Origin: Henckelia pumila
Lineage: Eukaryota; Streptophyta; Magnoliopsida; Lamiales; Gesneriaceae
NCBI RefSeq assembly: GCF_033568475.1
Contig: NC_133123.1
Span: 22,864,622-22,928,621, forward strand
Reading direction: 5' to 3'
DNA: 64,000 nucleotides
The notes under the pieces are model-generated. The model searched no databases and was not told the origin of the DNA. It saw only the letters and a program-made list of their open reading frames with translations. The translations under genes were made by a program, and so were the position numbers. Positions 28,839-53,013 of the stretch are shown here, piece after piece (within the stretch, counting starts at the first letter, position 1; every line of letters begins with the position of its first letter).

Positions 28839-28863
28839 TGCGGTGAACGTGGATCGAACACGT

Positions 28864-28906
<43 letters not shown>

Positions 28907-28911
28907 CCCGC
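28839..28911 (-). tRNA. tRNA-Phe (anticodon GAA)
   Basis: The 73-nt minus-strand sequence folds into a full cloverleaf: acceptor GCGGGGA/TCACCGC region with A discriminator, D arm TAGCTCAGTTGGGAGAGC, anticodon loop CTGAAGA (anticodon GAA at 28876-28878), and T arm GTTCGATCC. There is no intron and no encoded CCA, as expected for a nuclear gene. A TTTT run about 12 nt downstream can end Pol III transcription. Confidence 0.97.
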
Positions 28912-28964
28912 ATTTTGATGTTGGAGTAGTTTTACTATTAATGACCCTTAAAGTTCTCTACAAC

Positions 28965-29385
28965 TCCAAAGAAGGCATCAAATTCCTCCATGGTGACTTG
29001 ACTTGGGGTCTTGATACCTGCCATATCACCATCATCATCAGATGAAGCAACAGGGCGCTGGCTGAAGACGAAGACGAGCTCGAACGAATCCGACTTCCAC
29101 CTAACTAAAGACTTGGAGATTTACAGAGATGGAATTGGATGGTTGCAGATTCAAGGCAACCAAGTTTCTTTAGAAAGTTTATGACTCCCCTTGGCCACAC
29201 AGGAACCCCACCAAACCAGCCTAATGAGATTTGAACTGAAACGGAGCGTGTTTGAAGAACATGAGCGGCAAAATGCTTCGAGACTGAACTGCAAACGCAC
29301 CATTTGGCATCCAAGATTTTGTCGAAAACCGATCTAATCAACTCCTTTGGGAGACGATCGAAAGGGTTTTTCTTTTAGAGGCCAT
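28965..29385 (-). pseudogene. F-box family pseudogene (copy 1 of the cluster)
   Basis: The fragment matches the intact genes at 32357, 36295 and 52869: an NPFDRLPKEL-type F-box start, SVFDKILDAK, SSVSKHFAAHVLQTR, a block corresponding to FLKKFSSIDSMTI, then a piece corresponding to the RWKYGSSGFIF...TMEE region. A one-base shift separates the ATG (29385) from the F-box frame, internal parts are deleted, and the C-terminal half is missing. Confidence 0.85.
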
Positions 29386-29402
29386 CTTGTTTTGCAATTC
29401 TT

Positions 29403-29710
29403 CCGGAAAATTGCTTTTTTAGTTCCGAATATTTGTAAATTTGCGATTTTGGTAATCTATATTTTTAGATTTCAGTTTTAGTCCGCTATTTTTATTTTTT
29501 TTTGCAATTTTAGTCATTTTTCTGATGTGGCGTTGATGTAGTGCTGTTGTGGAGCTGACGTGTATAGCGCCACGTAAGCATTTTCGAATAAAAATGACTG
29601 AAATTGCCAAAAATCGAAACATGCATGAAAACTGAAATAAAAACATATAAAGGACCGAAATCGCAAAGTGACAAATATAAATGACTAAAATTGCAGTTTT
29701 GCCATTCTTT
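29403..29710. repeat. Diverged MITE-like element
   Basis: Both ends carry inverted versions of AATTTGCGATTTTGGT / GCAATTTTAGTCATT sequence, and the centre has CTGACGTG and GCGCCACGT. This is a widespread plant repeat type, possibly Mutator-related. It sits directly upstream of the F-box pseudogene. The ends and any duplication are unclear. Confidence 0.5.
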
Positions 29711-29727
29711 TATTACACGATCACTAA

Positions 29728-30120
29728 GGCACCATTTGATTTGAGGTATGTTATAAGTAATATATAAATAAGTAGTACAATGTAATAAAAAATAAATAAA
29801 AAATGATAGTTAAAATTGAATTGGATTTGATTGATAGATTATGGTTTATTTGATTTGATTGATTAAATTTTATATAAAAATGTTAAATGACTATTTTGTC
29901 TTTTTAACAATAAATAAAATAAAAATTATATTATTTATAAGGGGTAATATAGTAATTTGAATTCAATGATTTGATTGATGTGAGATAAATAATTAATGAT
30001 TTGATTGATGTAAAATAAATAGTTAACATATAGATAAATAATATGATGAGAAGAACATGAGATGTGATGAGATGAGATGAGTTATACATATATTAGTAAT
30101 ACCGTGAACAGAACGGTGCC
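29728..30120. mobile_element. Tourist-like MITE (393 bp)
   Basis: It begins GGCACCATTTGATTTG and ends GAACGGTGCC, with TAA at 29725-29727 and at 30121-30123. The right TAA is also the left TAA of the next element. Noncoding and AT-rich. Confidence 0.78.
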
Positions 30121-30123
30121 TAA

Positions 30124-30815
30124 GAGCATGTACAAGGATGAGATGAAGTTGGTGTGATGAAATTGGTAACTTCATTGCATGATGATAACTTCATTGCTTG
30201 TTTTGCGGGATGAGTCGTGAGATGTTGCTTGGTTCTGCGAGGGTGAATCGTGAGATGATGTTGTAGAAAGGAAGTTGAAATATTCATTTTTTATTTTATT
30301 AAATATATTTTTATTGAAACACAAAATAAAATTACACAATTAAAAGAAATTAAAATTACACATAAGTAAAATTTTAATATTACAAAAAAATTAATAAATA
30401 AACAAAATTAAGAAATTTTAAAAATTGCAAATAATTAAAACAAATTACCAACAACAAAATAAATTATTGTCCAAATTAGATTAATTTTTTTATCATTAAT
30501 TTTATAATTTGTAAAATTATTTTTTATAATTTAAAGGACCAGATTAATCTGGACCGTTGAATCTCCAACGGACTAGATTAATCTGACCATTGGATCAATA
30601 TCAAGTTTTAAAAACAAAATAAAAAAATAATTAAAAAAAAGAAAAAAGATTGCAGGCCGGTCACCGCGAGGAGGGTCTCCGCGTGGGCCCCGCCTGCATC
30701 ATTGGACAAGAAAAACGCCTCGTGCGATGTCTTCGCCCCTTCAAGGGGCGAGAAGAGCAATTGGGGCGAGGAAGCGCACTTTCTCGCTGGGCTTCCTCAC
30801 CCCTTGAAGATGCTC
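30124..30815. mobile_element. Internally deleted Harbinger derivative (692 bp)
   Basis: The ends GAGCATGTACAAGGATGAG and, inverted, GAGCATCTTCAAGGGGTGAGG are flanked by perfect TAA duplications (30121-30123, 30816-30818). It shares both terminal regions with the 2-kb element at 25407-27430: the left 250 nt with AACTTCATTGCTTG, and the right part with CAGATTAATCTGGACCGTTG and GAGGGTCTCCGCG. All ORF1 sequence is missing. Confidence 0.88.
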
Positions 30816-30818
30816 TAA

Positions 30819-32356
30819 CATTTAATTGATTCTGTGTCAGGATCATTTCTCTTTTAAATTTTTTTAATGGATATAGATTTGTCATATTTTATTTATGATT
30901 CATATCTTTTTGTATGGATTGTAATATTTATAGGATTTGGCGTATAATTGTCAGAAAATTAATATGATTTTGAGTAAGTTCATGATATTTTTACTAAATA
31001 TCAAAGAATTTACATCAAATATTAGTTATATTATAAGTTACCCTATTTGTCTCAATAGCTTATAGCTAGTTTGTGCTCTCTTTTATTTTAAGTAACAAAA
31101 GACAAGTTCAGCCAGGCCAAGAGTGCCTCCTACAAAACCCCAAAATAATGGCTAGAAATACTGGTTCAATGAAATCTGTAGTTGTGATGCTAATAGATTG
31201 TATACTAACTAGTACAACTGCAGAGAACAAAATTTTCTTCATAAATGAATTATAACAACTATGCTAGTCTGCACAGAAAACTGAAGTGAGATTTAAAATT
31301 GAGTGTAGTTGAAACTAGATCGTGATGCAAGCTAGTCAATGTCAAACAAAGCAACAACAAATAGTCAAATACTATCCATCTGCATCCCTCTCTTTCTTCA
31401 CATGGCTACCTTCCACCATGCAACATCAATAAACCGATAGAGAGCAGATAGGGGGAAGTGAATTCGACTCTAATGGAGCAACAAGCTGCAGCAGATGAAG
31501 TTAGCTGCTCAAGTCATTGAAGAATTCCGCAGTATGGACAGAGGGCATTGCTTCTTTGCTACAAATTGATAATGGTTCATGAAGCGAAAGCAGGATATGT
31601 TAGGATTAGCCAACCTCATAGTATGTATAGAATCTTGAATCAAGACAAAACAAATAGTTGGAGCTCTAATTATTGTTCGACGCATAGCTGTAGCATTTAA
31701 CTGTTTTTGCTTATATAATTTATTAAAATGACCTTTAACCAGATTAATTTTTCGCTCATGATGTCAACACAAATTCGGCTGCACAGTGATGGTCTTGCTC
31801 TTGAAGCAGTTTGTGGCTGGATTGCGAACAACTACCGAAGGAGGCGGTTTACAGTTTAGGTTTGCAATACTAGGGGGTTGATAATACCTTGTTATTGCTT
31901 GTGCAACTCGAACAAACCTACTAGAATAAATGGAATCAGTACTGAAGACGTTAATCTAAAAGATTTATTTCAGCTAATAAATCAAGGGATACCTCAAGAG
32001 ACATTCAGTTATAGATGCTGCCATCTAATATGATACTGCAGATTCCATTTGTGTTAGCAGCTACAGAACTTTTCAACTTGAGGACCATAAAATCCCTTCA
32101 CATTTGATTAATAAACAAGTTGATAAACTACAATTTCGATTAAGATGACAAGAATTGTCTTGTGTAATGATTGAAAACATTGATGAAGACATATATATGG
32201 CGCAACTAAAAGACTTCAAATTCGTGGAAACTCAGACAAAAGGTCTAGAGATTTCAGAATTTGCATTTACAGATCTAAACAAGCATCCTGAAAATGGAAC
32301 ATCCAATCTATCTATCATCAAACAGGTCTAATTCAACCTTTTCTTTTTGCTGCAAA
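30819..32356. other. 3' flank of F-box gene A, duplicated in the cluster
   Basis: No gene is seen. From about 31090 the sequence (GTGCCTCCTACAAAACC, TGCTAATAGATTGTATA, ACTATCCATCTGCATC, CAAGCTGCAGCAGATGAAG) recurs imperfectly downstream of the other F-box genes, near 34920-35450 and 50380-51000. Gene and flank were therefore duplicated together. Confidence 0.7.
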
Positions 32357-33385
32357 CTAATTAAGGGAAGTATCTAAAAGTGAAACAATCTTTTCAAAAC
32401 AAGCTCCTTCCTTCACCAAAATCATGGCAAGTTCGCGGTACTCTTCCTCTTCAAATGAATTTTCTGCCACTAAAGTATCAGAGCATTCAATTTGTCTGAA
32501 CAAGATCAGGCTCACATCTTTCATTATGCATCCAGAAAGTGGCATTTTCACCACTGGTGCTTTCCACAGTTTTAGGCAGAACTTGTCATCCAATGGATAC
32601 TTCTCTTTCAAGCCTGCAATCCCCTCCTCATCAAGAACAACTCTACCCTGTTTGATATCGTCCCCTGCCGCAACATTTTTTATGTTTGGAACACTAGAAA
32701 TAAGCTTGTGTATAAGAGTCACCCTTAAAATGGCATCCAACAGGTGTCGTCCCACCAAAAGAAGCGAAATCATGATTTCCTCCATCGTTAAATCATTTGC
32801 AGTTTGCACACCGGAATCACCAATATTTTCATCCGTAGATGCAACAAGATTCTTGGCGGACACGAAGATGAACCCCGACGACCCATATTTCCACCTGAGC
32901 AGAGGCTCAAATCTCGGCCGGCTGTTAGTTCCATTATGATCACCGCCGAGACAGAAGCGTATTGTCATGGAGTCAATAGAAGAAAATTTCTTCAAAAAGT
33001 TCATCATGCCCGGATTCAACAAAACAGTCCCGTCTCCCCACCCGAATCGATATTTGAGCCGCGACCACAGGGCCGTCAGAGGCTTGAACAGAAAATAGGG
33101 GATATTCCGAAGAAGAGCGAGCACGGGACGCGACCGCCGCGCGGCAGCAGGATCACGGTGGCAGGTGCAAACTTTAAACATACCTGGAATTTCCACAAAC
33201 ACCACGCGGGTCTGAAGAACAAGAGCCGCAAAGCTCTTGGAGACCGAGGAGCAAATGCAGAGGCATTTGGCATCCGAAATCTTGTCGAAGATGGACACTA
33301 CGAGCTCTTTGGGGAGGCGATTGAAAGGGTTTTCCTCCACAGAAAAAGCAGACGCCATTAACTTTTTTCTCATTGATTGTTCCAT
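32357..33385 (-). CDS. F-box protein A (SCF substrate adaptor)
   Basis: The product has 342 residues. An N-terminal F-box spans about residues 18-60 (NPFNRLPKELVVSIFDKISD...VSKSFAALVLQTRVVFVEIP); F-boxes bind SKP1 in SCF ubiquitin ligases. The rest has no LRR or Kelch repeats. Family hallmarks are FLKKFSSIDSMTI, RFEPLLRWKYGSSGFIFVSAK at about 161-181, LTMEEI, LKLWKAPVVKMPLSGCIM and a C-terminal EEEEYRELAMILVKEGACF. The layout resembles plant AUF-type F-box proteins, but the target is unknown. A second in-frame Met at 33358 (MASAF) matches the start of copy B; the upstream Met is supported by copy C, which starts MEESM. One exon, intact. Confidence 0.9.
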   Translation of the reverse strand: MEQSMRKKLMASAFSVEENPFNRLPKELVVSIFDKISDAKCLCICSSVSKSFAALVLQTRVVFVEIPGMFKVCTCHRDPAAARRSRPVLALLRNIPYFLFKPLTALWSRLKYRFGWGDGTVLLNPGMMNFLKKFSSIDSMTIRFCLGGDHNGTNSRPRFEPLLRWKYGSSGFIFVSAKNLVASTDENIGDSGVQTANDLTMEEIMISLLLVGRHLLDAILRVTLIHKLISSVPNIKNVAAGDDIKQGRVVLDEEGIAGLKEKYPLDDKFCLKLWKAPVVKMPLSGCIMKDVSLILFRQIECSDTLVAENSFEEEEYRELAMILVKEGACFEKIVSLLDTSLN

Positions 33386-36294
33386 TGTTTCCGTGTATTT
33401 TCTTGTTCTTGAGTGTACGAGAGTGGAGTGGAGTGGCTGGCAGGGAGAGGGGACGGAGCCTGCAGCTTGTTGGCCAAGTGAAGCGAATGGGGTGGGGTCT
33501 CTTCATTTCGTCAAATCAAATTCCATTCATAATAATATCTACGTCTAGAAAAACTCTCGATTTTTTATTTTTTATTTTTTTTGAACAAAATGTTGAATGA
33601 AATCATGAAACGTTTCATTTAAAAATAAATTTAAACTTCTCACACAAATATATTAAAAAAGTTTTGCTCGATTTAGTATAGATGGATCATGTATTATATA
33701 GGGCAGATTCTCTCTCTATATATTTTGCGGTCACACTAAATTAACATTTTAAATTCGTGGAATGATTTTTAATTTTTATAGATTCTACTTCTTATAATGT
33801 ATGTACTCATTTATTTGAATGCAATTTATTCAATAACATAATTAATTAATTACTCTTCAAACTTTGTATGTACTATTTGAATTTTAAAAAAAAAACACAC
33901 AAAAGAAAGAAAGAAAGAAAGAAGTGTCTACTGGATTGTATATTAACACAACTTCATAGAATAGAACACAATTTTCTTGAGAAAATGAATTATCAGAATG
34001 AAGCAAATTGTCAGCCAAAGCATAAAAACACTATCCATCTGCATGACTGCATCCCTCCAGCTCTTCCTTTCACATGCATAGTTTCTGCCTCGCAGCACCT
34101 TTAAAACAGGTGAAGAACAAATAGGCAGACGTAGAATCTAAGTTTCCGGGTCGTATGATATCATCGACGTATTACACAACTCAGAAAAGTTTAAACAAAC
34201 ACAAGAATATCCACGATACAATAATATTCAACGAGATGCGCTGGACGAAGTGAGATGCTGACCGCAAAACCAACACAGGCTGGAAAGTCAGCTCGCGTCT
34301 CGATTCTCCCGGCTGTTGGAGGCTTGTTCTTTTTGGTCTACATAAGAAGAACAACTGAAACCAAAGTACTTACAATCTTCAGAACCTTCCATCTCAAAAT
34401 TTTAAATTAATAGAGGGCACTCGCCGTCAATTCAAAATCACCATCAACTAAAAATATTAGGCTCAAGATACTTTTCACCACTTGTCCAACTATACAATGA
34501 AGAGAACAAGGAAAATAGACGTGACATCAGCCTCACAAGTTTAATACAATCTGGAAAGCAGTCAAGAATGCAAGTACAGTTGAACCACATTCAGTAATTT
34601 AATGCAATTCATTTATTTTGACATGTTATCCTTTGTCCATAAAGATTGCCATGGTGATTAAACCTCAAGGCAAAACAAGTGTACATTCATTCATCATCAA
34701 CTGTCACAAAACAGTGATATCCTACCGCCTAACTGACGAGGATATTGAGAAACTAGCAAGAACATAGTCGAATTCACAAGCGAGCATCTATTACCATGTT
34801 CTGCAATAAACACAAAGTGCAAAACATAAAACTTCAGATTCCACCAAACAACCAACTAAGGTTGATCAACAATTCTTTTCCAATTTCAATTTAATAATCC
34901 ACAAGGAGAAAAGCCAGTAACTGTTGTGTGATGCTAATAGGTTGTATATTAACATAACAGCAAAAGCACAATTTTCTTGAGAGATGAATCATCAGAATGA
35001 TGCTTATCTGTACTAAAAAAACTGAACTACGAGTAAAATTGAGCAAAATTGAATGTTAGATGATTGTAAAACAAGCTTATCAATGCCAAGCAAAGCATAC
35101 AGATACTATCCATCTGCACCCCCCAGCTCTTCCCTCACATGCCTAGCTTTTGCCAATCAACATTTATAAAACAGATAAAGAACAAACAGGGGGAATTGAA
35201 GTTGATTCAATCAAGCAACAAGCTGCAGCAGATGAAGTTAGCTACTTAAGTCATCGAAGCATTCCGCATGTATGGATGGGGGCATTACATTGTCGATACA
35301 AAATGATAGTAAGTAATGAAGGAAAACATGGTGTTAGACTCAGCCAGCCTTACAGTGTGTATAAAGTCTTGAAACAAGACAGAACAAATAGTTGCACCTT
35401 TGATTACTTTTGGACACATAGCTGTAACATATTGGTGTAGCTTAATATGGTTTATGCATACAGAAGAGAAGAAAATTGATCAATGAGTGATATTGTTTTA
35501 ACTAGAGAAATTTCGTGCTCGTGACAGCAACCCCTAATGGGCTGCATCGGCATGGCCAGTCCTCAAATGGAGAGTATGTATCAAAAGAAAATAATAGAGT
35601 TTTTTTTTTAATCGTGAAGCAGTTTGCAGTGTTGGTTTGCGATATAACTACTTCTAAAACACGTAATAATATTTGCAGATTTTACTGATATTCAATAAGA
35701 GATGTGCCGGTTATAATGTCAGAAACCTTGCTAACATTTGCTTCTATATTTCGCTCTAAATAGACGATAGATTAGCATTATGCTTATTGCAGCAAAGTCC
35801 ATGTAGTGCCAAAACACTGTAGAGTAAATCGAACCGAGTTCTTTCAACTAATGAATCGAAGGAACAGCTCAACAACATTTAGCTGTGGATGGCGCAATCT
35901 AATTTGATACTGCAGGTTTCATTAGCAAAATCTGAGCTTACAATAATTGAATGCAAGTTCCCAAAGCAATCCCAAAAATGAAATCAAAAGGGAAAAACGT
36001 ACCTCTTCACTAAAGTATGTGGTATCAGTTACGTAACAGAACTCTTCAACCTGAGGAGCATATATCACTTCACATTTGCTAAATTGTACAAGATGATTAG
36101 GATTGTTTTGTTTCACGAAAACATTGATGAGGAAATATATATGTTGTAACTAAATGAATTTAAATTCGAGGAAACTCAACAAAAGATCTACAAATTTCAG
36201 GTGACCATTCACAGATTTAAGCAAACATCCTGACATCCCGACCTATCTATCATCAAAGAGTTTTCTAACTTCAACATTTTCTTTTTGCCACAAA
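33386..36294. other. Spacer between F-box genes A and B with duplicated flank pieces
   Basis: No coding gene is seen. Two stretches, about 33920-34100 and 34920-35450, are diverged copies of the same F-box 3' flank, so an extra flank without a gene survives. A (GAAA)n microsatellite lies at 33900-33922. The gene A promoter should lie at about 33390-33700. Confidence 0.6.
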
Positions 36295-37278
36295 CTAAAT
36301 GATAAGAAGTTTCGAAAGTGAAGTAATCTTTTGAAAACAAGCTTCCTCCTTCACCAAAATCATGGAAAGTTCACGGTACTCTTCTTCAGCAAATGAATTT
36401 TCGGCCTCCAATGCATCGCAACCTTCAATTCTTCTGATCAATATAAGGCTCACCTCTTCCATTATGCATCCCGCAAGTGGCACTTTCACCAAAGGAGCTT
36501 TCCAAAGCTTTAAGCAGAACTTGTCCCTCAGTACACTCTTCTCTTTCATAACTGAAATCTCTTGGTCATCAAAAATAACTCTGCCCTGTTTCATATTGTC
36601 CACTGCAACAAAATGTTTTATGTTTGGACGATTATCAAAAATGGTGTACATAAAAGCCAGTCTCACAGCACAATCCACGAGGTGTTGAAACATCGAAAGA
36701 AGCGAGACAAGGACTTCCTTCCTCGTTACATCATTCGCAGTTTGAACACGGGAATCGCCTGTATTTTCATCAATAGATGCAACACGATTCTTAGCAGATA
36801 CGAAAATGAACCCCGACGACCCATATTTCCACCTGAGTAGAGGCTCGAAACTCGGCTGGCTGTTACTAGCATCATGGAGAGGGAAATGAAATGTTATGGA
36901 GTCGACGCAAGAAAATTTTTTCAGAGAGCTGACGATGTCCGGTTTCGACAAAGCGGTCTCGTCTCCCCGCCTGAATCGAGATTTGAGCAGCGACCACATG
37001 GCCATCAGAGGCTTAAACAGAAAATTGGGGATATCCCGAAGAAAAGAGATCAGCAGACGAGACGGCCGTGCGGCGGCGGGATCGGGGTGGCATATGCAAC
37101 CTTTAAAAAAGCATGGCATTTCCACAAACAAGACGCGGGTCTGGAGAACAAGAGCCGCAAAGTTCTTGGAGACCAAAGAGCACTTGCATAGGAATTTTGC
37201 ATCCGAAATCTTGTCGAAGATGGAGATGATCAGCTCTTTCGGGAGACGATTGAAAGGGTTTTCATCTTCAGACGCCAT
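36295..37278 (-). CDS. F-box protein B (paralog of A)
   Basis: The product has 327 residues and one exon. The F-box is at residues 6-50 (NPFNRLPKELIISIFDKISDAKFLCKC...FAALVLQTRVLFVEMP). It shares nearly every block of copy A, including FEPLLRWKYGSSGFIFVSAK, KLWKAPLVKVPLAGCIM and the acidic-aromatic C-terminal EEEYRELSMILVKEEACF. It starts directly at MASEDENPF, supporting the internal Met of copy A as ancestral. It is presumably an SCF adaptor; substrate unknown. The pararetrovirus-bearing element lies about 430 nt upstream of its ATG. Confidence 0.9.
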   Translation of the reverse strand: MASEDENPFNRLPKELIISIFDKISDAKFLCKCSLVSKNFAALVLQTRVLFVEMPCFFKGCICHPDPAAARPSRLLISFLRDIPNFLFKPLMAMWSLLKSRFRRGDETALSKPDIVSSLKKFSCVDSITFHFPLHDASNSQPSFEPLLRWKYGSSGFIFVSAKNRVASIDENTGDSRVQTANDVTRKEVLVSLLSMFQHLVDCAVRLAFMYTIFDNRPNIKHFVAVDNMKQGRVIFDDQEISVMKEKSVLRDKFCLKLWKAPLVKVPLAGCIMEEVSLILIRRIEGCDALEAENSFAEEEYRELSMILVKEEACFQKITSLSKLLII

Positions 37279-37707
37279 TGATTCCTTCTCTGTATTTTCT
37301 CGCAGTTCAGTTATCAGTCAGTGTCCCAGGACGAGAGAAGAGAAGGAGCCTGCTGGGCCGCCAAGCGAATGGAATCTTAATATCCTGTGGTAATGTGCAA
37401 CATAATCTACCGTAGGCCTTTTTGCTTTTTTTTTTTTGTTTGAAGAAAAAAATGAATATCAATTTAAGATAATATTTTTGGGTACAATAAATTAATATAT
37501 ATTAAATTCGTGTGATTATTATATTTTTTATAAAGAGAATTCTTATGCGTGAACTCATTATTTGAATCTCATTTTATCCAACATGTAATTTCTCTTCAAT
37601 TTTGAAATATTGTCACTTTAATTTTTTTACCAATGATTTTTAAAAAATAAAAATAGTTGAAATCCACTTGAATTTAATTTTTCCAAACAACGCACTAGAA
37701 AATATAA
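37279..37707. other. Upstream region of F-box gene B
   Basis: Promoter-sized AT-rich DNA between the ATG of gene B and the terminal repeat at 37708. The TSD copy AAAATATAA occupies 37699-37707. No other feature is recognised. Confidence 0.5.
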
Positions 37708-37949
37708 GAGTCAATTATGAATAAATCCCCAAACCCAAACCTTTTTTTCTCCCAACTCCCTCCCTTAAAGATTCTTTTTTTGCACTCCCTAATGACCACA
37801 AAATTTGATTATTTTAATATTTAATTCTTGTACTCAATATGAGTTGTTTTGTGCTTAGATCTGAAGGTTTTATACTTATATCTAAAGATCTCTGTGCTTA
37901 TATCTCATGTTTTAATGCTTATTTTGGAACAAAGAATTATGTGCAAAAA

Positions 37950-37961
37950 TGGTATCAGAGC
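37950..37961 (+). promoter_or_regulatory. tRNA-Met primer-binding site
   Basis: TGGTATCAGAGC is the standard complement to the 3' end of initiator tRNA-Met used to prime minus-strand synthesis in Caulimoviridae. It lies 79 nt before the first ORF, within the leader. Confidence 0.92.
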
Positions 37962-38016
37962 TTTAGGTTAAATATTCAGACTTAATATTATTCGTTAACT
38001 CATACTTTTCTTTGTT

Positions 38017-38026
38017 GAGGAGAAGA
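38017..38026 (+). promoter_or_regulatory. 3' strand of the predicted leader shunt stem
   Basis: GAGGAGAAGA is an exact complement of TCTTCTCCTC at 45132-45141, and neighbouring bases (TTTG/CAAA) extend the helix after a small internal loop. It is followed by a T-rich stretch and an ATG at 38040, the usual arrangement of a shunt landing site. Confidence 0.65.
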
Positions 38027-38039
38027 TTTTTTACAAAAG

Positions 38040-38147
38040 ATGACTTCAAACGAAGGTTTGAATCAAGAGGATTTTATTTATATGAAATCCTATAAACAAG
38101 TTAATCTGTTCACAATAGATTACTTACGACAGAGAGATGATTTCTAA
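38040..38147 (+). CDS. Pararetrovirus ORF1, small protein of unknown function
   Basis: A 35-codon frame opens right after the leader (MTSNEGLNQEDF start) and overlaps the next ORF by 11 nt. No domain is recognised. It may be intact, or the remainder of a longer gene. Closely packed small ORFs are usual in the family. Confidence 0.5.
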   Translation: MTSNEGLNQEDFIYMKSYKQVNLFTIDYLRQRDDF

Positions 38148-38508
38148 CTCTCAATTTTTAGAAATTACCTCAGATTCCTCTAAACTCTCCGGAGATGTTA
38201 GAAAAATTCAAAAGACGGTATAATATTACAGCAATCAGCTGTATGAAATACCTCGGCAGATTGAAGGAATCCTTAAGAAACAAGAAGAAATTCTTATAAC
38301 CCTAAAGGATCTTCAAACTAAAATCACAAATTTAGAACAAACTTCAGGTTCTAGAAAAGGAAATACAGGAGGAAGGTTACCACTCTCGTTTAGTACCGAA
38401 CCGTTGTTACATCAGAAAGGTAAAACCAAAATGGTTCAAAAACCTTTAACTGATGATGAAAGGATGATTAATCTTATAAAAGCAGTATCAGAGAAAAACA
38501 CTATCTGA
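38137..38508 (+). pseudogene. Pararetrovirus ORF2, coiled-coil protein, one internal stop
   Basis: A 123-codon frame has a single TAA at 38221-38223. The middle is a predicted coiled coil (repeated I/L with K/E/Q, around 38260-38340), followed by a basic Gly/Arg/Lys-rich stretch. This composition recalls virion-associated or aphid-factor-type proteins of caulimovirids, but I cannot assign it. It ends in TGATG, overlapping a start of the next frame. Confidence 0.55.
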
Positions 38509-39905
38509 TGACTACTTTAGAGAGATTAAATCTCGAGGATCTACAAGATCTCGAGATTCTTTTGCGAATATCAAAGTAGTAGATCTAAAAATGAACTCCC
38601 CTAGGGTGAACAACCCATAGGGAATCCCCCAAGATATGCGGTTAAAACAGAAGAACCACATAGTAAGTTTCAGGTTGGAGAAAATTCACATCCAGCAGGA
38701 ACTAGATCAAGAAGGAGTAAAATCCCACTCCATCAAACTCCTTACGGAAAACTGTTTTAGATCCAATACATCCTTACGGGGTTATGTTAAACCTTGATGT
38801 TTTGGACTTAAAAAACAGAGAAGATCTTATAGATGATTGGACGTCAGCTATGAGAATTGCAGCAGGGACATTAGATCTCAATAAAGAAGGATTCATTAAA
38901 CTTCTAGAAATGAGTCTAATGGGATCTGTCAAGATTGCTTGGGAGATGACTATGCCAGATACGAAGGAATCAATCTTAGCAGAAGAATCCCTCAGCGAAA
39001 TTGGAGAAAGAATGGCCACCCTATTTAAATCACAATTCATAGAGGTAGACTATTTCAACAATCAAGATACAGAGAAAAAGAGAAGATACACTCAAGCTCT
39101 GTATAGCCTCGAGTTACATGATATATGTTTAGTTGATGAATACATTATGTTATTCACTAAATACAGATGGAATTCAGGAGTCGAGGAAAATGTAGCTATT
39201 CAGCTATTTTTCGCAAAAATGCCAAGTCCCTCGAGAGAAATGCTGATTAAAGAATACGTTCCAGGTCATCTTGACACTTTGGCAAGACGCGCGTCCTTTT
39301 TGAAAGGAAAATTGGCAGAATGGTGCCATATGGCAGCATTACAGAAGAACTACAAGAAAATAAGGGGTATAAATAAACGTACACCTTTATGTTGTAAAGA
39401 TAATGATCTTCCAACGATCATTGAAAACAGATCACAGGGATTTAAAAGGAAGAAATTCAGAAGTAATCCCTACAATAAAAGAATGAGAAGTTCTTGGAAA
39501 CCAAGAACATTTTGGTCCAAACAAAAGGCCAGATCTTATAGGTCAGGAAGAAGAAGTGGACCTACAAAAACATCCCCAGTAACAAGCTCATCACAAAGCA
39601 GGGGAAGAACACCATCAAGAAGAACTTTCAGGAGAACTCATACAAGAGCAAGTGAAAGTTTCAAGGATTGCAACTGCTGGACATGTGGAGCAAGAGGACA
39701 TATATCTACAAATTGTCCAGAAAACGAGAAAAAAGGAGTTAAATTTTTTGAAGCAACATCAGATATGGATGATGCGGTCTTCTTTCAAGATCTAGTCCAA
39801 GTATATCAATTTGAGGATATCCCCTCAGATGAAAGCATATACGAAGAAGATATATTGTTTAGTCAAGAAGATTCTGAGGATGGATCAGAATCAGAATCAG
39901 AATAA
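38508..39905 (+). pseudogene. Pararetrovirus coat protein, 5' part frameshifted
   Basis: From 38784 a frame of 373 codons is open. It contains the core region, a long Arg/Lys/Ser-rich stretch (about 39430-39650), the CCHC zinc knuckle C-x-C-x2-C-x4-H-x4-C near 39670-39720 that defines caulimovirid coat proteins, and an acidic C-terminal tail of E/D/S. Upstream, 38508-38780 holds related sequence in at least three frames with stops near 38578, 38622 and 38758, so the N-terminal part is broken. The coat protein assembles the capsid and binds pregenomic RNA. Confidence 0.87.
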
Positions 39906-41109
39906 AGAAGAAGTGTTTCGGCATGAAACACATGAAAGTTTGGCTGGATTCTTTAGCCAAACCACGATATCTCATAATATGGTCCAAAGGATTATGAGAG
40001 AAAATCCAACGTTACAAAAGTACCAGGGATTTTCGGCAGGACAAGTAGAAAGAGTCTTAGGCAACCTAGGGCTTAGACAAAGAAGACATAATTTGATTTA
40101 CAAAGTATCCAGAAGGGAAATGACAATCCCCATGGAGTTAACAAGTAATCAAATAGAGATGCAGTTAATTACTTTTGAAGAAATAAGAGAGGAATTGCAA
40201 AAGTTGAAAGGTGAGGTAGCAAGGACGATGTCTTGGATTCATATTGGAGCAATCCAAATAATGATCAAGACAACTTTTAAAGAAGGAATAGATTCACCCA
40301 TAGATATCGTAGTATGCGATAAAAGAATGGGAAATATTCAAGATGCTGCCCTGGGTACTATCTCAGGAAATCTTTGTGCAGGAAAAATTGTAGGAGTTAT
40401 CTATCCAATAATAGCCTACAATTTAGCTGACAGGGACTTTAGTCGAGCCTTGACGTTGCATCAAAACTTCAAGGAAAAGAGACTAATGAAGGAAGGTAAT
40501 AGACAATATTCTATTACATATCAAATTTCATATGCTCTTTCTAATACTCATCATTCTGAATTATTTATTAGAAATGAGTTCATTGAAATTCCAGAGATCT
40601 TTGGGAAAGTTGCTCATGCAATATACCCAGAAAAAATCGAGTTTCCTTTAATTCAGGAAACAGACATTCAAATCCAAGACAGACCGGTTCTATACAGAGA
40701 CCTTAAAATAGAACCTCAAAGGTTATCTTTTCAAGGAAACCGAATGACAAGTAGGAGATGAGACAAATCTCCTATTCAAGAAATTCCACCAGAAGAAAAA
40801 GAGTTTTCTATAATAGGAAAACTTAGATCTCCAGAAGGATGGAAAGAAGTGAAAATAGTATTCGATATTACAAGTCATCGGAACCAGTTCCCTTGTAACT
40901 CGATTTACTATTTGGAACAACATGAAAAAGGAACTTACCAAGGATTAATAAATATTGGAGAATTGGAAGTTCAAATATGTGGAATTCCAGGAAAAGAAGT
41001 GGATCAGCTCATTCTTGGCCTAGAGTTTCTGGAGGACCATAAACCATGGAAACGCCTTGAAAAAGAAATAGAGTTCATGGCAAAAGAAAAGACTTGGAAG
41101 ATTCAATAA
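39811..41109 (+). pseudogene. Pararetrovirus movement protein (30K superfamily), one in-frame stop
   Basis: The frame overlaps the coat gene by about 95 nt. The core DKRMGNIQDAALGTISGNLC at about 40316-40376 and the following YNLADRDFS block are the movement-protein signature that carries virus through plasmodesmata. A TGA at 40759-40761 interrupts the frame, which then stays open to 41109 (LILGLEFLEDHKPW). Lying after rather than before the coat gene is the informative feature for classification. Confidence 0.85.
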
Positions 41110-41121
41110 GAATTCTACGAA

Positions 41122-41388
41122 ATGGAAAACCAAGAGAATTGGATAAGGGACAATCCCTTAATCAGATTCGAGAACTCTGTTTACAAACAGAGGAAGAAGC
41201 AGTTGTTGAAATTAGTAAGTCATAAACATGATTTACTAGATCGCATCGAAGAGGTAGAAAGGAGTAACCATACTCTACCTTCTGAAGCCTTAGGAAGACT
41301 AAAGGTGAATAGTCTTAATCGGCTTACTGAGTTACAACACAGTCTATTAAAAATGGCAGGGCCATTTAGTAATCCCTTTAAAAAATGA
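41122..41388 (+). CDS. Pararetrovirus 88-codon ORF, unknown, coiled-coil
   Basis: The product is short and highly charged, with heptads of L/I/V (KLVSHKHDLLDRIEEVERS) and a basic end (PFSNPFKK). It could be a virion-associated-type protein, by coiled coil and basic C-terminus only. The stop overlaps the next start as ATGA (41385-41388), typical of caulimovirid gene junctions. Confidence 0.5.
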   Translation: MENQENWIRDNPLIRFENSVYKQRKKQLLKLVSHKHDLLDRIEEVERSNHTLPSEALGRLKVNSLNRLTELQHSLLKMAGPFSNPFKK

Positions 41389-43409
41389 CAACAAATCCTT
41401 TCTCCATATACATTCCGATAGGGATGTTGTATGAACAATATAAGGCTGAATACTTTGCAGCTTATATTGATTCGGAAGCAGGAATTTGTACAGCAAAAAG
41501 AGGAGTCTTCCCTGAAAAATGTGAAGAAGATTTGCCAAAAATTGCTTGACGAGATTTCTCTCGAAAATTTTAATTCTTTGCAAAGGAATAAAACAAGCAG
41601 AGATCCTTATAGGAGGAGCAGGTCAGACATCTTGGTACAAGGTAAAGACACCACCAATCTATTTCCATGATACAGGAGCTGATATCCTGTTAGGAAATAA
41701 CTTCTTACAAATGTTTAAGAAGTACACACAAGACAATGAGTCAAGAAGACTTATGTTCACTACAATTTGTGATCATAAAATTATCATTCAAAGAATCAAA
41801 GTTGCTTTTTATCGACAATTGCCGATAATATTTCGCAGCCAGCATGGTGATAAGGGACAACTTTTTCACCCAAAAATGAAAGATCCAAGAAGGTTTGGAG
41901 AAACCATGTTGAAAATAACAACAGAACAAGAACTCCAAACAGAGGATATGGAGCTTCTCAAGGTAACTCTAAATCATAGAGATATAGAGTTAGAAAATAA
42001 GGTATCCCTTGAAGATGTCAAAAAGAGGCTCAAAGAAAGTTATAATGAGCATCCTTTGGCATGGTGGGATAGACATCAACTCAAAGCCTGTCTTACTCTA
42101 AAAGAAGGCAAATAGTATGAATTCGTCAGATATAAGCCTATTCCGATGAACATAACAGATCAAAGGGATATGAGAATGATTATCAAGGAACATTTGGACC
42201 TTGGTCTAATCAAAGAAGGAGTTTCACCATATAGTAGCCCAGGTTTTCTGGTCAGAAATCATGGTGAAATAAAAAGAGGAAAACCCAGATTAGTCATTAA
42301 CTACCAAGGTATTAATAAAATCCTGGAGTTTGACGGGTACTTCATACCTAGTAGAGAACATCTAATTAGCTGTGTACGAAATGCTAGAGTGTTCTCAAAA
42401 TTTGATTGTAAGTCTGGATTCTACCAGATAAGAATGGAAAAAGGCAGTAAGAAATTCACAGCCTTCTCTACTCCACAAGGACACTATATTTGGGAAGTTA
42501 TGCCTATGGGATTGGCTAATGCACCCAAGATATTTCAAAGAAAGATGGATAACCTTTTTAAAGATTATTTCAACTTTATGTTTGTTTATATTGATGATAT
42601 TCTTATAGCATCAAAAAATATAGACGAACACGTTAAACACTTAGAGATTTTTTCTAAAATTTGTAAACAAGAAGGACTGGTGTTATCTGAAAAGAAAGCA
42701 GTCATAGCAACAAGGAAAATTGAATTCCTCGGTATTGAGATTGATGAAACTGGAATAATTCTACAACCCCATATTGTGGAAAAGGTAAAGAATTTTCCAG
42801 ATAAACTCAAAGATGTAAAACAGCTCCAGAGTTTTCTTGGAGTAGTTAATTTTGCAGGGATGTTCATTAACAATCTAGCAATGTACAGAAAGGTGTTCAG
42901 TCCTTTATTAAAAAAGGATGCTAGGTTTATATGGACCGATGACCATACTAAAGGGGTAAACCAATTAAAAGAGATATGTAAGAATCTCCCAAAAATGGCT
43001 ATACCCGTAGATAAAGATGATCTGGTATTATTTACGGATGCCAGCGACGATTGGTGGGTGGCAGTCCTTACCAAAATCACTCCAGATGGGGAAATACCAT
43101 GCAGATACTGTAGCGGTCTTTTTTCATAATCTGAGGCCATTAGATGGCATATCAACGAGAAGGAATTTTATGCGGTTAAAAGGGCTTTTGAAAAATAGCC
43201 ATTATTTTTACTTGCTAAAAAATTTCACTCTGAAGGTTGATAACACCCAGGTAAAAACTTTCCTAAAGAATAAGATTGAATCTAAACCTGAGAAAGCTAG
43301 GTTATTAAGATGGCAAGCTTTATGTCAAAATTATATTTTTGATATTGTTATTATTAAATCTCATGAAAATATTCTTGCAGATTTTTTAACAAGAGATGGA
43401 AGGCAGTGA
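41385..43409 (+). pseudogene. Pararetrovirus protease-reverse transcriptase-RNase H, broken
   Basis: Order: aspartic protease (41385 on), reverse transcriptase, RNase H. The protease active-site triplet D-S/T-G reads D-S-E, so the glycine is lost. A stop and frame change lie near 41545. A GADILLGNNFLQ block (about 41678-41710) follows in the new frame. A TAG at 42113 precedes the RT, which is open from 42116 to 43129 with PRLVINYQGIN, FDCKSGFYQI, MPMGLANAPKIFQ and the catalytic YIDD (about 42590). The RNase H begins LFTDASDD near 43027 and is cut by TAA at 43127 and another stop near 43197 before ending LADFLTRDGRQ. The last 14 nt overlap the next ORF. Confidence 0.92.
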
Positions 43410-44313
43410 CGTGGATTCCATCCTGAAAATGCAGAGGCATCTCAGGGAACACCTTGGGTTGCTTCAAAACGAGTTCAACCAGTTAGCCATTAATGCTGAA
43501 ATGGCCGGCAGGTTACAACAAGCTGATCGGATCAAAGTATCTAATCGAATTATAGGATGTATGCAAGCTCAAACACAACTATGGGCTGCTATTCAAGGGC
43601 CAATTGTGAAGGCTATAGAGAAACCATTGGTTTCTCATAAACAAGATATACTAAAACCATTGGTTTTACAAGAACAAGAAATACAACCACCGGTTGTGAA
43701 ACAAGATGTTGAGGAATCTAAAACTCAAGAAACAAGAGCTAATCTATCATCAGCCTTTGATGATCTGGATGAAGCAACAATTGATGAGGATAACTCATCA
43801 ATTCAACCCTCCGCCTCTGGGGTAAAAGAGGAAGAGATCAATCTTAGGCCTAACACTGACAAGGGCAAATCTAAGATTGATACTAATCCATCTATTATTT
43901 CTCCATTCCAGGTTTATCAACAGAAGTGGGAGAAATTGAATACAAGGAATGAAATCAACCCGAACACTTGCAGGGTTGATGTTGCAGGAATATATCCAAG
44001 GGTTTGGCTAAAAAACAATGTCAATCCTAAAGATGTAAAACTCTGGTATGAATTTGGGGCTTTGGCCTCAGTTTATACAACGTCACCAAGCTTTCTGAAG
44101 ATATCACAGTTACCAAAATGGATTCAGGAAGCAGTCCAAGAAACATGGGCAAATAATGATCATTTGTCCAGAGGAGATGTGCTTGAGTTATATTTTTTCA
44201 GTGCAGCTCCAGAACCAACAGTGAAAGGATCACACGAACCCTTTCATTTTATCAAGCTGAGGAGACCTGATATAAACAGTCATAAATTTATCAAGGATCC
44301 TAAAACTGAATAA
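43396..44313 (+). CDS. Pararetrovirus transactivator-like (TAV) ORF
   Basis: A 305-codon open frame starts inside the end of the RNase H frame, the position of the translational transactivator/viroplasmin gene in caulimoviruses, cavemoviruses and solendoviruses. The N-terminal third is helical and Gln/Leu-rich, the middle acidic and low in complexity, and the C-terminal third has a compact aromatic region (NPNTCRVDVAGIYPRVWLK, DVKLWYEFGALASVY) like the RNase H-type fold seen in such proteins. The assignment rests on position and general features. In the family this protein allows reinitiation on polycistronic RNA. Confidence 0.65.
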   Translation: MEGSDVDSILKMQRHLREHLGLLQNEFNQLAINAEMAGRLQQADRIKVSNRIIGCMQAQTQLWAAIQGPIVKAIEKPLVSHKQDILKPLVLQEQEIQPPVVKQDVEESKTQETRANLSSAFDDLDEATIDEDNSSIQPSASGVKEEEINLRPNTDKGKSKIDTNPSIISPFQVYQQKWEKLNTRNEINPNTCRVDVAGIYPRVWLKNNVNPKDVKLWYEFGALASVYTTSPSFLKISQLPKWIQEAVQETWANNDHLSRGDVLELYFFSAAPEPTVKGSHEPFHFIKLRRPDINSHKFIKDPKTE

Positions 44314-44790
44314 AATACCCTTGGTGTCCACTTTCGGGGAAAATGAGATCTCAATCAGAAGGGCATGGGGTATTTGAGTCTGTCTTACTGAGATGGACAA
44401 AGTCAAGTTTCCATTCAAATTTTATCACAATTCTGTGAACGGATCGTTCCTGTTGAACACAATGATAGGAAAAACTACACCATTTGCGAAAGAACTCTTC
44501 GAAAAAAAGAGAAATCTTTTGTGGAACAACAAGCTGCCGGGGAGTAAAGAAACTCGTCGAAAATTTTGTAACATGGCTCATATTGGACGATGGTCAGAGA
44601 ATATCTGCCCAGAATGCCCAAATCAGAAGGAGCCAGAATTTGCAAAAACCTTTAGACCCCGAACGGATCGAAAGGATTTTTCCAAGACAAGCAAAGGTGG
44701 ACAAGGACCACCAAAGATGCGTTTTCACAGGGGTCTACTTCAAAAGCAAAAGATGCCCCGACAACAATAAAACAGGCATGTGAGGAGAAT
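44314..44790 (+). pseudogene. Remnant of the 3' end of the transactivator ORF
   Basis: Frames of 125 and 99 codons overlap here (44393-44770 and 44484-44783). Cys- and Lys-rich segments switch frame near 44580, suggesting one original C-terminal extension broken by frameshifts. Function unknown. Confidence 0.4.
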
Positions 44791-44821
44791 AAAGCCAAAA
44801 GAAAGTGGCAGACATGTGATT

Positions 44822-44990
44822 CCTCTACTGGTAAAAGATGCCATCAATAAATGGCATAAAAAATTCAAGACAGCTGCCTCCTCCACTAGTAAAAGATGCC
44901 ATAAATAATGGCATAAAGAAATACAAGACAGCTGTAAGATTCCCTGAAGTTTCTCGGTGAAACGAGTGGAACTACAGCTATAAATACAGG
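44822..44990 (+). promoter_or_regulatory. Pararetrovirus promoter with duplicated enhancer-like repeat
   Basis: A segment GGTAAAAGATGCCATCAATA...CAAGACAGCTG (44822-44876) is repeated imperfectly at 44880-44934, each with the small palindrome ATGCCAT...ATGGCAT. The TATA box TATAAATA lies at 44979-44986. This corresponds to the pregenomic RNA promoter after the last gene in caulimovirids. Transcription would start near 45010. Confidence 0.8.
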
Positions 44991-45009
44991 CATTTGAGGA
45001 AGCTGAAGA

Positions 45010-45514
45010 CATCGATCATTCCCTTCAGTTTTCTTACGAATAAAATTGTTGTAATATTTCTCTTTCTATTGTAATAATTTTTCGTTGATGTATCTTAAGA
45101 ACGAGGCTACTATGAGTAGCTAAACAAGTTGTCTTCTCCTCTTCAAAGGAGTTGATTTATGTAATAATATTATGTCTGAATAATTTTTCTAAAGTCTCTT
45201 GTTCTTTCATGTTCATATTTTATAATTAAATTTATATACCATACGCCTTAAGGTAGAAAACGAATTAAGGCTGTGCTGGGTGTCGTTGAAGGAGCTTGTG
45301 CAGAAACCATCTGTTGCGACTACGTGGTTGGAGTGTGAGGAGCACTTCGTAAAACTCGGCAGGTATGATCCAACGACATTATGGTCAAATAGGTATTTAA
45401 ATTTGATTCATTTTACGGAAGCATGTTGGACCCTAATCTAAAGTATATAGGCTGGAAACCTTGCGCAACCAATAGTTTTTCACGACATGAACTGGTTCGA
45501 TAGGTAAAACAACG
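45010..45514 (+). other. Pararetrovirus pregenomic RNA leader, 5' portion
   Basis: It has an AATAAA at 45039-45044 suitable for RNA 3'-end formation, a 3-codon sORF (45112-45123) and a stem strand TCTTCTCCTC at 45132-45141. The remaining leader continues to the inner end of the right terminal repeat. In the integrated copy this leader is separated from its 3' half (37843-38039). Confidence 0.7.
45112..45123 (+). promoter_or_regulatory. Leader short ORF (ATG AGT AGC TAA)
   Basis: This three-codon ORF ends 8 nt before the stem strand. In caulimovirids a short ORF ending a few nucleotides before a stable stem drives ribosome shunting. Its function here is inferred from geometry. Confidence 0.6.
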
Positions 45515-45722
45515 CCAAAGTACAAAAGATTAGTTAAATACTTGTTTAATCAAAATTGGGGACCACTAGGAAGTGCAAACTAAAAAATTTGAATGTAGGG
45601 AGTTAGGAGAAATTTATGTTTAGGTTTAGGGATTTTAAAATAATTACCCCAAAATATAAGCAATTTTATTTGAAATCAAATAAAGTAATTTAGATAGTGC
45701 TTGCAGTGAGTATAAATAACTG

Positions 45723-50375: not shown

Positions 50376-51392
50376 ATGCTAATAGATTGTATATTAATGT
50401 AACTGCATGGTAAACAATTTCCCAGAGAAATGAACTATCAGGACAATGCTAGCTAATTTATATATAAAACTGAAGTAAGATCTGAAAATTTGAATGTAAT
50501 GCTAGATTATCGATGCCAGTCAAAGCATACAAATACTATCCATCGGCATCCTTCCACTTCTTCCCTCACACACCTACTTTTCCAGTGTAAAATCAATAAA
50601 ACAGATAAAGAACGAATATGGTGAAGTAAAGCCGATTTCAATGGAGAAACAAGCTGCAACAGATGAAGTTAGTTGCTTAAGTCATTGAAGAATTCTGCAG
50701 GTTTGGGTAGAGGGCATGACTTTGTCGCTACAAAGTGATAGTGATTCATGAAGCAAAAGCATGGTCTTAGAATCAGCTAACCATATAATGTGTATAGAAT
50801 CTTGAAACAAAACAGAACAAATAGTTGCAGCTTTAAATATGATCTACATGCAGATTTAATGTTCAATTGGTGTTGATTATATAATTTGTGCATATAAAGG
50901 AGAAGAAAATTGTCCAAAGCTTGAAACACAAGTGTTATTAAAAAACTAGAAACGTTTCTTGCTCCTTATGCCAGCCAATACTCATTGGTCTGCATTGGCA
51001 CGACTTTACTCAAATGGAGAGTATGTATCGAAAGAAAGACAAAAGAGGTTTTACTTATGAAGCAGTTTGTAGTCTTGGTTCGCAATAAAACTACAGGAGG
51101 TCATACCTCTTCCTTAAAGTATGTGCTATCGGTTACTTAGCAGAACACTTCAACCTAAGGAACATGCATATCTCTTCACACTTGCCAAGATGACAAGGAT
51201 TGTTTTGTTTCATGAAAACACTGATAAAGCAAATATATAGCTGCAACGAAAAGACAATAAATTCGTGAGAACTCAACAGAAGGTCAACAAATTTTAATTT
51301 TTTATTTGCGTATCTAAACATGTGGCCAGAAAATGGAACATCATCATCAAACTTTTTTCTAACTCCCAACATTTTCTTTTCGCTGCAATCTA
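50376..51392. other. 3' flank of F-box gene C, duplicated family flank
   Basis: No gene is seen. It is a third diverged copy of the flank described at 30819-32356, including ACTATCCATCGGCATCC and GATGAAGTTAGTTGC. A short stretch near 51110-51200 matches 35990-36120. Confidence 0.7.
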
Positions 51393-52869
51393 TTAACCTG
51401 AAAGAACTGAAATTGGAAACTTCAATCCAAAACTAGCTTCTTCCTTCACCAAATTTGTTGCAAGTTCACGGTACTCTGCTTCCTCAAACGAATTTTCAGC
51501 CAACAATGCTTGACAACCTTCAGTTGGCATGAGCAAGATAAGGCTCACATCTGTCATTACGCATCTAGAAAGGGGCAGTAGCACCGCAGGAGCTTTCCAT
51601 ATCTTCATGTAAACCTTGTCATCAGCCTTCCACCAGGGATTCTCCTCTTTCACAACTGCAATATCGTCTTCATCAAAATCGACTATCCCCTGTTTCATAT
51701 CGTCGAAGGTGGCAGCATGATTTATGTTTGGAAGAACAGCAGCAATATCCTGTATATGAGCCACCCTCGACATGGAATCGCAAAAGTGATTTCGCATGAA
51801 CATATACTGGATCAACAATTCCTCCATGGTTAAATTAGGTTCAATTGCTGCATTGCGATCCATTGTAGATACAAGATCTACATAGATAGAGGAGAAAGTT
51901 CAGTTATTTCTCTGTATGTGAAGTTACAAATGCAAATGTGGGAAAATACTTATAATTACTGGTGATTTTGTTAACTGACTCATATTCTAATAACAGTGTT
52001 GATTACCCAGATTATCTTGAGTTTAGATCAATGAATAAGCTTCGAATTCTTGGTTATCAGAGATTGAACGTGAGACTTTGATCAAGACCACAACACAAAA
52101 GAATCAATAACACAGTAGCAACACCACAGAGAGATGAATATTCTAATCGGTGGTTTTCTCCAATTATCTTTTAACTGCCAATTCAAGATTCCAAGCACAA
52201 ACTGAATAAACGTCACATGCTCTAATAGAATCACTTGCATACATCGGCCAAAAAAAATAAAAAATAGAAAAAGAAGAAAAGGAATCAATCACCTGTATAT
52301 TCATCCTTTAGAGCATAACGGTTCTTGGCAGAAAAAAAGATAAACCCCGACGACCCAAATTTCCACCTGAGCAATGGCTCGAATCTTGACTGGCTGTTAG
52401 CAGCATCAGCATCAGCATGACGGAAAGAGGAGTGAATGGTTATGGACTCCAGGCAAGAAAATTTCTTCACAAAATCGATGACGTCGCCACTTGACCGAAC
52501 ATCGGTCTTCTTCATCAGCCTCAAGAGAAACTTGAGCAGCGTCGACAGCATGAATAGGAGAGGCCTGTGAACAAAACCGGGGGTATTTCCAAGAAAACAA
52601 GACATCACTCTACAAAGCCATACTTGAGGTGGGGAAGCGACGACGGAAGGATCGGGGTGGCAGCTGCAAGCTTCAATCTCACCTGGCATTGTCACAAACA
52701 GCACGCGGGTTCGAAGGACGAAAGCGGCAAAGGACTTGGAGACCAACCCACAAATGCAAAGGCATTTGGCATCAGAAATCTTGTCGAAGATGAAGACTAT
52801 CAGCTCCGCCGGGAGGCGATCGAAAGGGTTTCGCTCTGCAGATATTTCAGACTCCATTGATTCTTCCAT
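51393..52869 (-). CDS. F-box protein C (paralog with an intron)
   Basis: Two exons are predicted: 52293-52869 and 51393-51877. The donor is ACAG|GTGATT and the acceptor TGTAG|ATCTTG. Phases join to give about 353 residues. Exon 1 holds the F-box (NPFDRLPAELIVFIFDKISDAK...VSKSFAAFVLRTR, residues about 14-55), then FVKKFSCLESITIH and RFEPLLRWKFGSSGFIFFSAK. Exon 2 has NLTMEELL, MKIWKAPAVLLPLSRCVM and the EEAEYRELATNLVKEEASF tail. Genes A and B lack the 415-nt intron. Alternative: two frames of a dying gene; conserved blocks on both sides and consensus splice sites favour splicing. Presumed SCF adaptor, target unknown. Confidence 0.83.
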
Positions 52870-53013
52870 CTTTCTCTGTGCTTTTTTGCTCTTCAGTGTA
52901 TGAAATGAGAGTGAAGTGGCAGAAACTGCTTGTTACGCAAGAAATATGGGTCTTCAATTTGATCCCTTCAAGTAGCTATTTCCCTTTTTTTAATAGTATA
53001 GAAATTAAATATA

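Follow-up and report, generated by a model that had tools for sequence, protein, structure and literature searches.

How does a pararetrovirus, which encodes no integrase, come to lie between the inverted ends of a DNA transposon? The question is raised by an element at positions 37708-45650 of a 64,000-nucleotide stretch of the Henckelia pumila genome (NC_133123.1, 22,864,622 to 22,928,621, forward strand), here called the window. An earlier note, made from the sequence of this stretch, had offered two explanations: either viral DNA had joined into a foldback miniature inverted-repeat transposable element (MITE), or an element with terminal inverted repeats (TIRs) carried a viral genome as cargo. 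Many insertions of the same unit exist in the 885-Mb genome, and the window copy is one of them. The virus and both of its ends are inserted as a single unit, with defined ends and 9-bp duplications, at many places. We infer, with a probability of roughly two in three, that the insertion is that of a caulimovirid which has a Mutator-like TIR pair in its leader, replicates by reverse transcription with these ends aboard and is inserted by the transposase of a host Mutator-like element (MULE).

The left arm (37708-37842, 135 bp, plus strand) and the right arm (45515-45650, 136 bp, minus strand) of the window copy match each other in inverted orientation with a local alignment score of 117. The maximum among 1975 random pairs of pieces of the same size from the window was 76 and the 99th percentile 54, so that a chance similarity is ruled out and the repeats reported in the earlier note are real. 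The repeat is imperfect, the arms being about 73% identical over the best 102 bp and 66% over their full length. Comparison of the flanks identifies the 9-bp sequence AAAATATAA as the target-site duplication, present at 37699-37707 and repeated at 45651-45659, as the note had also stated. There is no direct repeat of at least 25 nucleotides joining the two element ends, as a structure of the long-terminal-repeat type would have. The insertion lies about 0.4 kb upstream of one member of a tandem array of F-box-like genes on the minus strand (29126-37317 and 51214-52932). These paralogues did not yield an empty site, because their homology stops about 415 bp to the left of the insertion.

Other copies were sought in the genome, the complete matches and those most similar to the window ranking first; the candidate numbers given here and below are not confirmed counts. 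The best 40 of 785 left-arm candidates were all at least 96% identical, the best 40 of 525 right-arm candidates all at least 99% identical, and 40 of 1212 candidates were scored for a 701-bp piece of the coat gene. Since 15 copies are in both arm lists, the two sets of 40 arms represent 65 distinct places with an arm. The left arm leads directly into viral DNA in all 13 other copies followed inwards (7 over several hundred base pairs and 6 over about 50 bp). The flanks of these copies are unrelated, except for c8 and c9, which have the same left flank and are thus not independent. The right end was found in 10 of the 13; the stretches read for c5, c8, c9 and L059 contain no right end. At the right-arm loci, which were selected by full arm matches, the virus lies inside in 30 of 30 (window included), and the flank changes directly after the last base of the arm. 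Two copies, L016 (C3:156.9 Mb) and L018 (C3:100.7 Mb), have an identical left flank, so that one site is duplicated in the genome or in the assembly.

The duplication is perfect (9/9) in 21 of the 26 two-ended copies, window included. When flanks were swapped between copies, 9/9 agreement was seen in 10 of 650 pairings and at least 8/9 in 35 of 650, some copies sharing a target sequence. The target sites are TTAATATAA-like. Beyond the duplication the left flanks have a mean identity of 34% and a maximum of 68% (325 pairs). The search for other loci with arms, virus and different 9-bp flanks, which the earlier note had recommended, thus succeeded. Copy lengths from 15 coordinate pairs are 5162, 7542, 7900-7945 (12 copies) and 8156 bp, so that most copies are insertions of the complete unit. 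MULEs make target duplications in the range of 9-11 bp, and the element has both the 9-bp duplications and the long terminal inverted repeats typical of them. Movement of the unit by a MULE-like reaction is very likely. MULE transposase domains (PF10551) abound in the genome, all 150 that were scored of 1188 candidates lying above the cut-off and several of them in open frames of more than 700 codons, which makes it plausible that a host transposase acts in trans.

Between the arms, profile matches were found to a caulimovirid coat domain, a movement protein, an A3 protease, a reverse transcriptase (RT) and an RNase H, all on the plus strand. The first open reading frame (ORF) region next to the leader (38040-38508) is broken in the window copy. 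The coat protein (38784-39905; Caulimovir_coat_dom, with a weak CCHC match below the cut-off) is open, but shorter than the 478-480 codons found in 13 of 30 copies. The coat gene lies 5' of the movement protein ORF (39880-41109; MP domain), which has one in-frame stop. An aspartic protease piece (41525-42115; Peptidase_A3) is followed by the RT/RNase H region (42116-43409), which is in two overlapping pieces, and by a 3' ORF4 in the position of TAV (43396-44770), which has one frame shift and one stop. In all, the window copy differs from its relatives by about six in-frame stops and four frame changes across the genes, in a rough count. The complete caulimovirid gene set described in the earlier note is accordingly complete in kind, but most of its frames in this copy are broken. 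The note had also held that caulimovirids have neither TIRs nor an integrase. No integrase domain was found in the ORFs scanned from the window, in agreement with the latter part, but the family described here does have defined ends with duplications. No transposase match was found in ten scanned ORFs, nine of them within the element.

ORF4 of the window copy has no Pfam match, and its relatives, among 10 matches, are from Salvia, Perilla, Sesamum and Dorcoceras, all of them Lamiales. The closest relative of the coat protein is in Henckelia pumila and is 85% identical over 76% of the query. No relatives of the viral sequence were found in viral_contigs. A coat gene before the movement gene is a Solendovirus or Cavemovirus-like trait; this order and an ORF4 in the TAV position are both seen here, in a comparison confined to gene arrangement. 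The movement protein has 277 matches, very many of them in Sesamum, with some in Salvia also among the 120 listed.

The signals expected of a pararetroviral leader are divided between the two ends of the element. Near the right end and reading outwards, on the plus strand, there is a 58-bp tandem repeat (44821-44934), presumably enhancer-like, upstream of a TATA-like box (44978-44986), which we take to be that of the pregenomic promoter. It is followed by AATAAA (45039-45044), the presumed polyadenylation signal, and by a short ORF of three codons and a stop (45112-45123). This ends 8 nucleotides 5' of the ascending arm of a predicted leader stem (45132-45199), whose descending arm (37957-38026) is at the other end of the element, upstream of an ATG at 38040. 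The inverted match between the two stem arms has a score of 57, the best of 500 shuffles having 36, and the duplex formed by the end pieces as separate RNA strands has a calculated energy of -99.2 kcal/mol against -70.1 +/- 5.0 for shuffled sequences, none of 150 being equal. The significance depends on the choice of scoring: the stem stands out with stricter scoring against shuffles, whereas a looser local alignment of the leader ends is at chance level (108, against a 99th percentile of 111 for 568 random pairs). At the left end, leader sequence (37843-37949), which differs strongly in the second lineage described below, lies between the arm and a tRNA-Met primer binding site, TGGTATCAGAGC (37950-37961).

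A short ORF, a stem and a landing site form the shunt configuration of pararetroviral leaders, as set out in PMC5902531. The leader of the window copy resembles the take-off configuration in that account, with the short ORF 8 nucleotides before the stem, but differs in that the primer site adjoins the stem instead of lying clear of it. It is most likely that a single leader comprises both viral ends and is interrupted at the position of the arms. These would then, on a circle, be near the top of the leader stem; the arm duplex has an energy of -81.8, calculated with no shuffle control. A full pregenomic RNA would require a circle or a tandem, because the promoter of a lone linear insertion points out of its right end.

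Evidence on whether the ends replicate with the virus comes from a second lineage. Among 30 coat loci, 21 (window included) have a left arm of the window type, here called A, and six have a different left arm, 75-79% identical to it; the stretch read for the other three contains no left end. The ends of this lineage B are homologous to those of A and are situated at the same position, but have diverged, the arms of five B copies being 73-80% identical to, and 20-27% different from, those of A. All six B-ended copies are B-type up to 37942, the last B-specific difference, and A-like beyond it; none of 20 other A copies has the difference at 37942. Within the primer site, position 37958 shows a difference in four of the six B-ended copies and in one of 19 A copies, placing the boundary beside or inside the primer site. 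From 38134 rightwards the differences shared by the B-ended copies are private to the window copy, 16 to 18 of 18 other A copies showing them also. Seven right ends were read, the mates of the six B-ended copies and of L063. In six of them ORF4, promoter, leader and right arm are about 87-88% identical, while the match of L059 stops at 44598. In L083, the one copy read there, the B differences resume between 42440 and 42517. Viewed on a circle, these copies thus consist of one B block, running from the middle of RT through ORF4, promoter, leader, right arm and left arm to the primer site, and one A block. Since reverse transcription starts at the primer site, one template switch within RT would be enough to produce this pattern. 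The duplications of the five two-ended B copies are 9/9 in three, 8/9 in one and absent in one.

Comparison of A with B also gives a record of selection. In RT (42511-43126; the window copy against one B copy, in an alignment row with 16 gap letters) the mismatches are distributed 3/3/32 over the codon positions. The synonymous divergence (dS) is 0.32 and the nonsynonymous divergence (dN) 0.013, giving a dN/dS of 0.04. The net dN/dS between A and B is 0.17 for the 5' part of ORF4 (three A and six B copies) and 0.04 for its 3' part (32 A copies with seven or with six B copies); one of the B copies, L107, was extended past its homology, and without it the ratio for the 3' part is the same (net 0.04). 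Within lineages the ORF4 ratios are 0.46-0.72. These values indicate strong purifying selection on RT and ORF4 between A and B. This is most simply explained if the ancestor shared by A and B carried the ends and its descendants needed a working RT and ORF4.

Differences among the inserted copies are of another kind. In 30 copies the singleton changes by codon position are 55/51/46 in the coat gene and 57/36/42 in the movement protein gene, indicating that the copies decay under little or no selection once inserted. Variants found in at least two copies (coat 17/10/22, movement protein 18/18/10) have no clear codon bias and are mostly C-to-T or G-to-A (41 of 49 and 41 of 46, respectively). Selection cannot be read from these shared variants, and the comparison of A with B was therefore needed. 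Besides the 13 open coat frames mentioned above, a movement protein ORF of 437 codons is open in six of 28 copies; with so many open frames, many lesions are private and the source was open in both genes. The mean pairwise divergence is 2.2-2.5% (435 pairs for each gene), and the tree is a star, its terminal branches making up 96.6% of the total length. The sequences thus point to one burst, about 1% divergence per sampled copy ago, as seen in the nearest copies. At a rate of about 7e-9 changes per site and year the burst would date back roughly 1-2 million years, with a wide error.

In the proposed mechanism the replicating form would be a circle, and in its pregenomic RNA the arms would be close together in the leader, atop the long stem. 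Reverse transcription would copy the ends together with the virus, hence the A/B recombinants that switch next to the primer site. The unit would be inserted in trans by a host MULE transposase, and insertion by way of transposon ends would be the virus's way round the absent integrase. A short burst would have spread the unit, each copy then decaying independently. That the ends are a stable part of a replicating pararetrovirus is probable, mainly on the evidence of the two lineages. The description of a TIR element with viral cargo in the earlier note was right in that the unit moves as a whole, but "cargo" probably understates the relationship, because the arms have diverged along with a virus under purifying selection; they seem to be a lasting component of the viral genome and not a shell round a dead passenger. 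The chances are evenly balanced that the inverted repeat has two functions, forming the top of the hairpin in the pregenomic RNA and serving the MULE transposase as its substrate, with the virus alternating between reverse-transcribed episomes and transposase-made insertions.

Several observations weigh against the proposal of a replicating virus with transposon ends. The samples are biased to the copies that are closest to the window and most complete, and the B copies are few (six or seven for ORF4 and one for RT). A perfect duplication is missing at the expected place in five of the 26 two-ended copies, and the last bases of the right end are altered in c2, c7 and c10. In c2 the duplication becomes 9/9 if the right end is set 2 nucleotides shorter and in c7 it is 8/9, while in c10 and d4, as also in L065/L109, none is recognisable; d15 (the same as L069), whose left flank ends in ttaaaagaa as does its right flank, was not counted among the 21. 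Outer ends joined to each other (0-16 nucleotides apart, exact motif) occur nowhere in the chromosomes, and thus no relics of joined circles were seen. The assignment to MULEs is drawn from the 9-bp duplications and long TIRs. No element linking the arms to a transposase gene was found, although the TIRs of the PF10551 elements were not read. Had A and B acquired their ends separately, the purifying selection might in principle be older than the ends, but the 73-80% likeness of the A and B arms favours one origin. Finally, the B-A-B pattern could result from gene conversion between chromosomal copies.

An alternative is that a Pack-MULE-like DNA transposon captured a viral genome once and that a MULE transposase then multiplied it as DNA only, the viral genes being passengers. 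The ends, the duplications and the burst require no viral function, MULE transposases are plentiful and no joined circle is seen in the chromosomes. The fairly even spread of the singletons over codon positions and the shared variants without clear codon bias also agree with such a history. The low dN/dS of RT and ORF4 between two end-carrying lineages and the recombinant boundary beside the primer site do not, and on balance this explanation seems unlikely. DNA-only movement, moreover, tends to spread deletion derivatives, whereas the one deletion junction tested, that of L007, had no full match except at its own locus in the 40 scored of 2051 candidates. Nor was an empty element found: a query of the joined arms gave single arms only among 40 scored of 1130 candidates, a search in which a recent empty element would be expected to rank first and old, diverged ones could be hidden.

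The same result, together with the many filled loci that have different flanks and their own duplications, leaves hardly any room for the first explanation of the earlier note, in which viral DNA integrated by chance in the middle of a foldback MITE, even though the arms adjoin the virus without an obvious spacer and palindromic repeats have been proposed as break points for caulimovirid integration (PMC10377300). It is also improbable, if less extremely so, that another enzyme, such as a retrotransposon integrase in trans, inserted a viral circle at a fixed point, the arms being simply the top of the leader hairpin. On the circle the arms would indeed extend the leader stem. Retroviral-type integrases, however, make duplications of 4-6 bp. 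The use of retrotransposon machinery by caulimovirids has been proposed (PMC10377300), but 9-bp duplications with long TIRs are the MULE pattern (PMC4486113).

Elsewhere in the window, a perfect 51-bp inverted repeat with a 1-bp centre is located at 3826-3928; long perfect palindromes are unusual, or this one may be a trace of the assembly. Remains of a LINE-like non-LTR element with endonuclease, RT and zf-RVT domains lie at 4362-7642, and a tRNA-Phe gene is on the minus strand at 28838-28912. A block of about 1.3 kb occurs twice, at 55862-57135 and 62061-63339, about 6.2 kb apart; its pieces are 92-96% alike, and each copy contains 62-bp tandem repeats.

Pack-MULEs have MULE ends round foreign sequence and carry fragments of host genes as passengers. 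The Henckelia element likewise has MULE-type ends enclosing foreign sequence, but here this is a complete replicon, with RT and ORF4 under selection between lineages. With the foldback, MITE-like MULEs called MuTAnTs it shares long TIRs, G/C-rich outermost bases, 9-nucleotide duplications and AT-rich targets (PMC4486113). MuTAnTs are there mostly 200-300 bp long and related to a mudrA-like element, whereas the Henckelia ends have a viral genome between them and the scored matches included no empty form. In its coat, movement protein, protease, RT/RNase H, tRNA-Met primer site and shunt-type leader the element is like the endogenous caulimovirids (florendoviruses, petuvirus, solendovirus and others) described in PMC4241990 and PMC10377300. 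According to the former, those described by 2014 were nearly all fragmented and rearranged, and no coordinated integration was assumed; the Henckelia units are whole, with defined ends, inverted repeats and target duplications. Where these sources touch on mechanism, integration is regarded as something that the virus is unlikely to coordinate (PMC4241990) or its mechanism as speculative (PMC10377300), and in PMC10175614 the mechanism of pararetrovirus integration and multiplication is called unknown. The last of these describes Teratorn, a 180-kb piggyBac-herpesvirus fusion of teleost fish, as the first case of a DNA virus fused to a cut-and-paste transposon. Compared with Teratorn as presented there, the Henckelia element is different in kind, being a reverse-transcribing plant virus of about 7.7 kb with MULE-type ends and 9-bp duplications and with no transposase recognised inside. 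No report of a pararetrovirus with transposon ends was found among the titles and abstracts listed in searches of the open-access literature, subscription journals being mostly outside the scope of the search.

The element provides a concrete and testable route by which pararetroviruses that lack an integrase could enter chromosomes, with borrowed transposon ends and precise duplications. If the proposal is true, a DNA transposon and a reverse-transcribing virus have become joined, and Teratorn would have an independent second counterpart among virus-transposon fusions. This would be a new route of reverse-transcribing elements into chromosomes, and possibly the hitherto unknown one behind the very high-copy pararetroviruses of other Lamiales.

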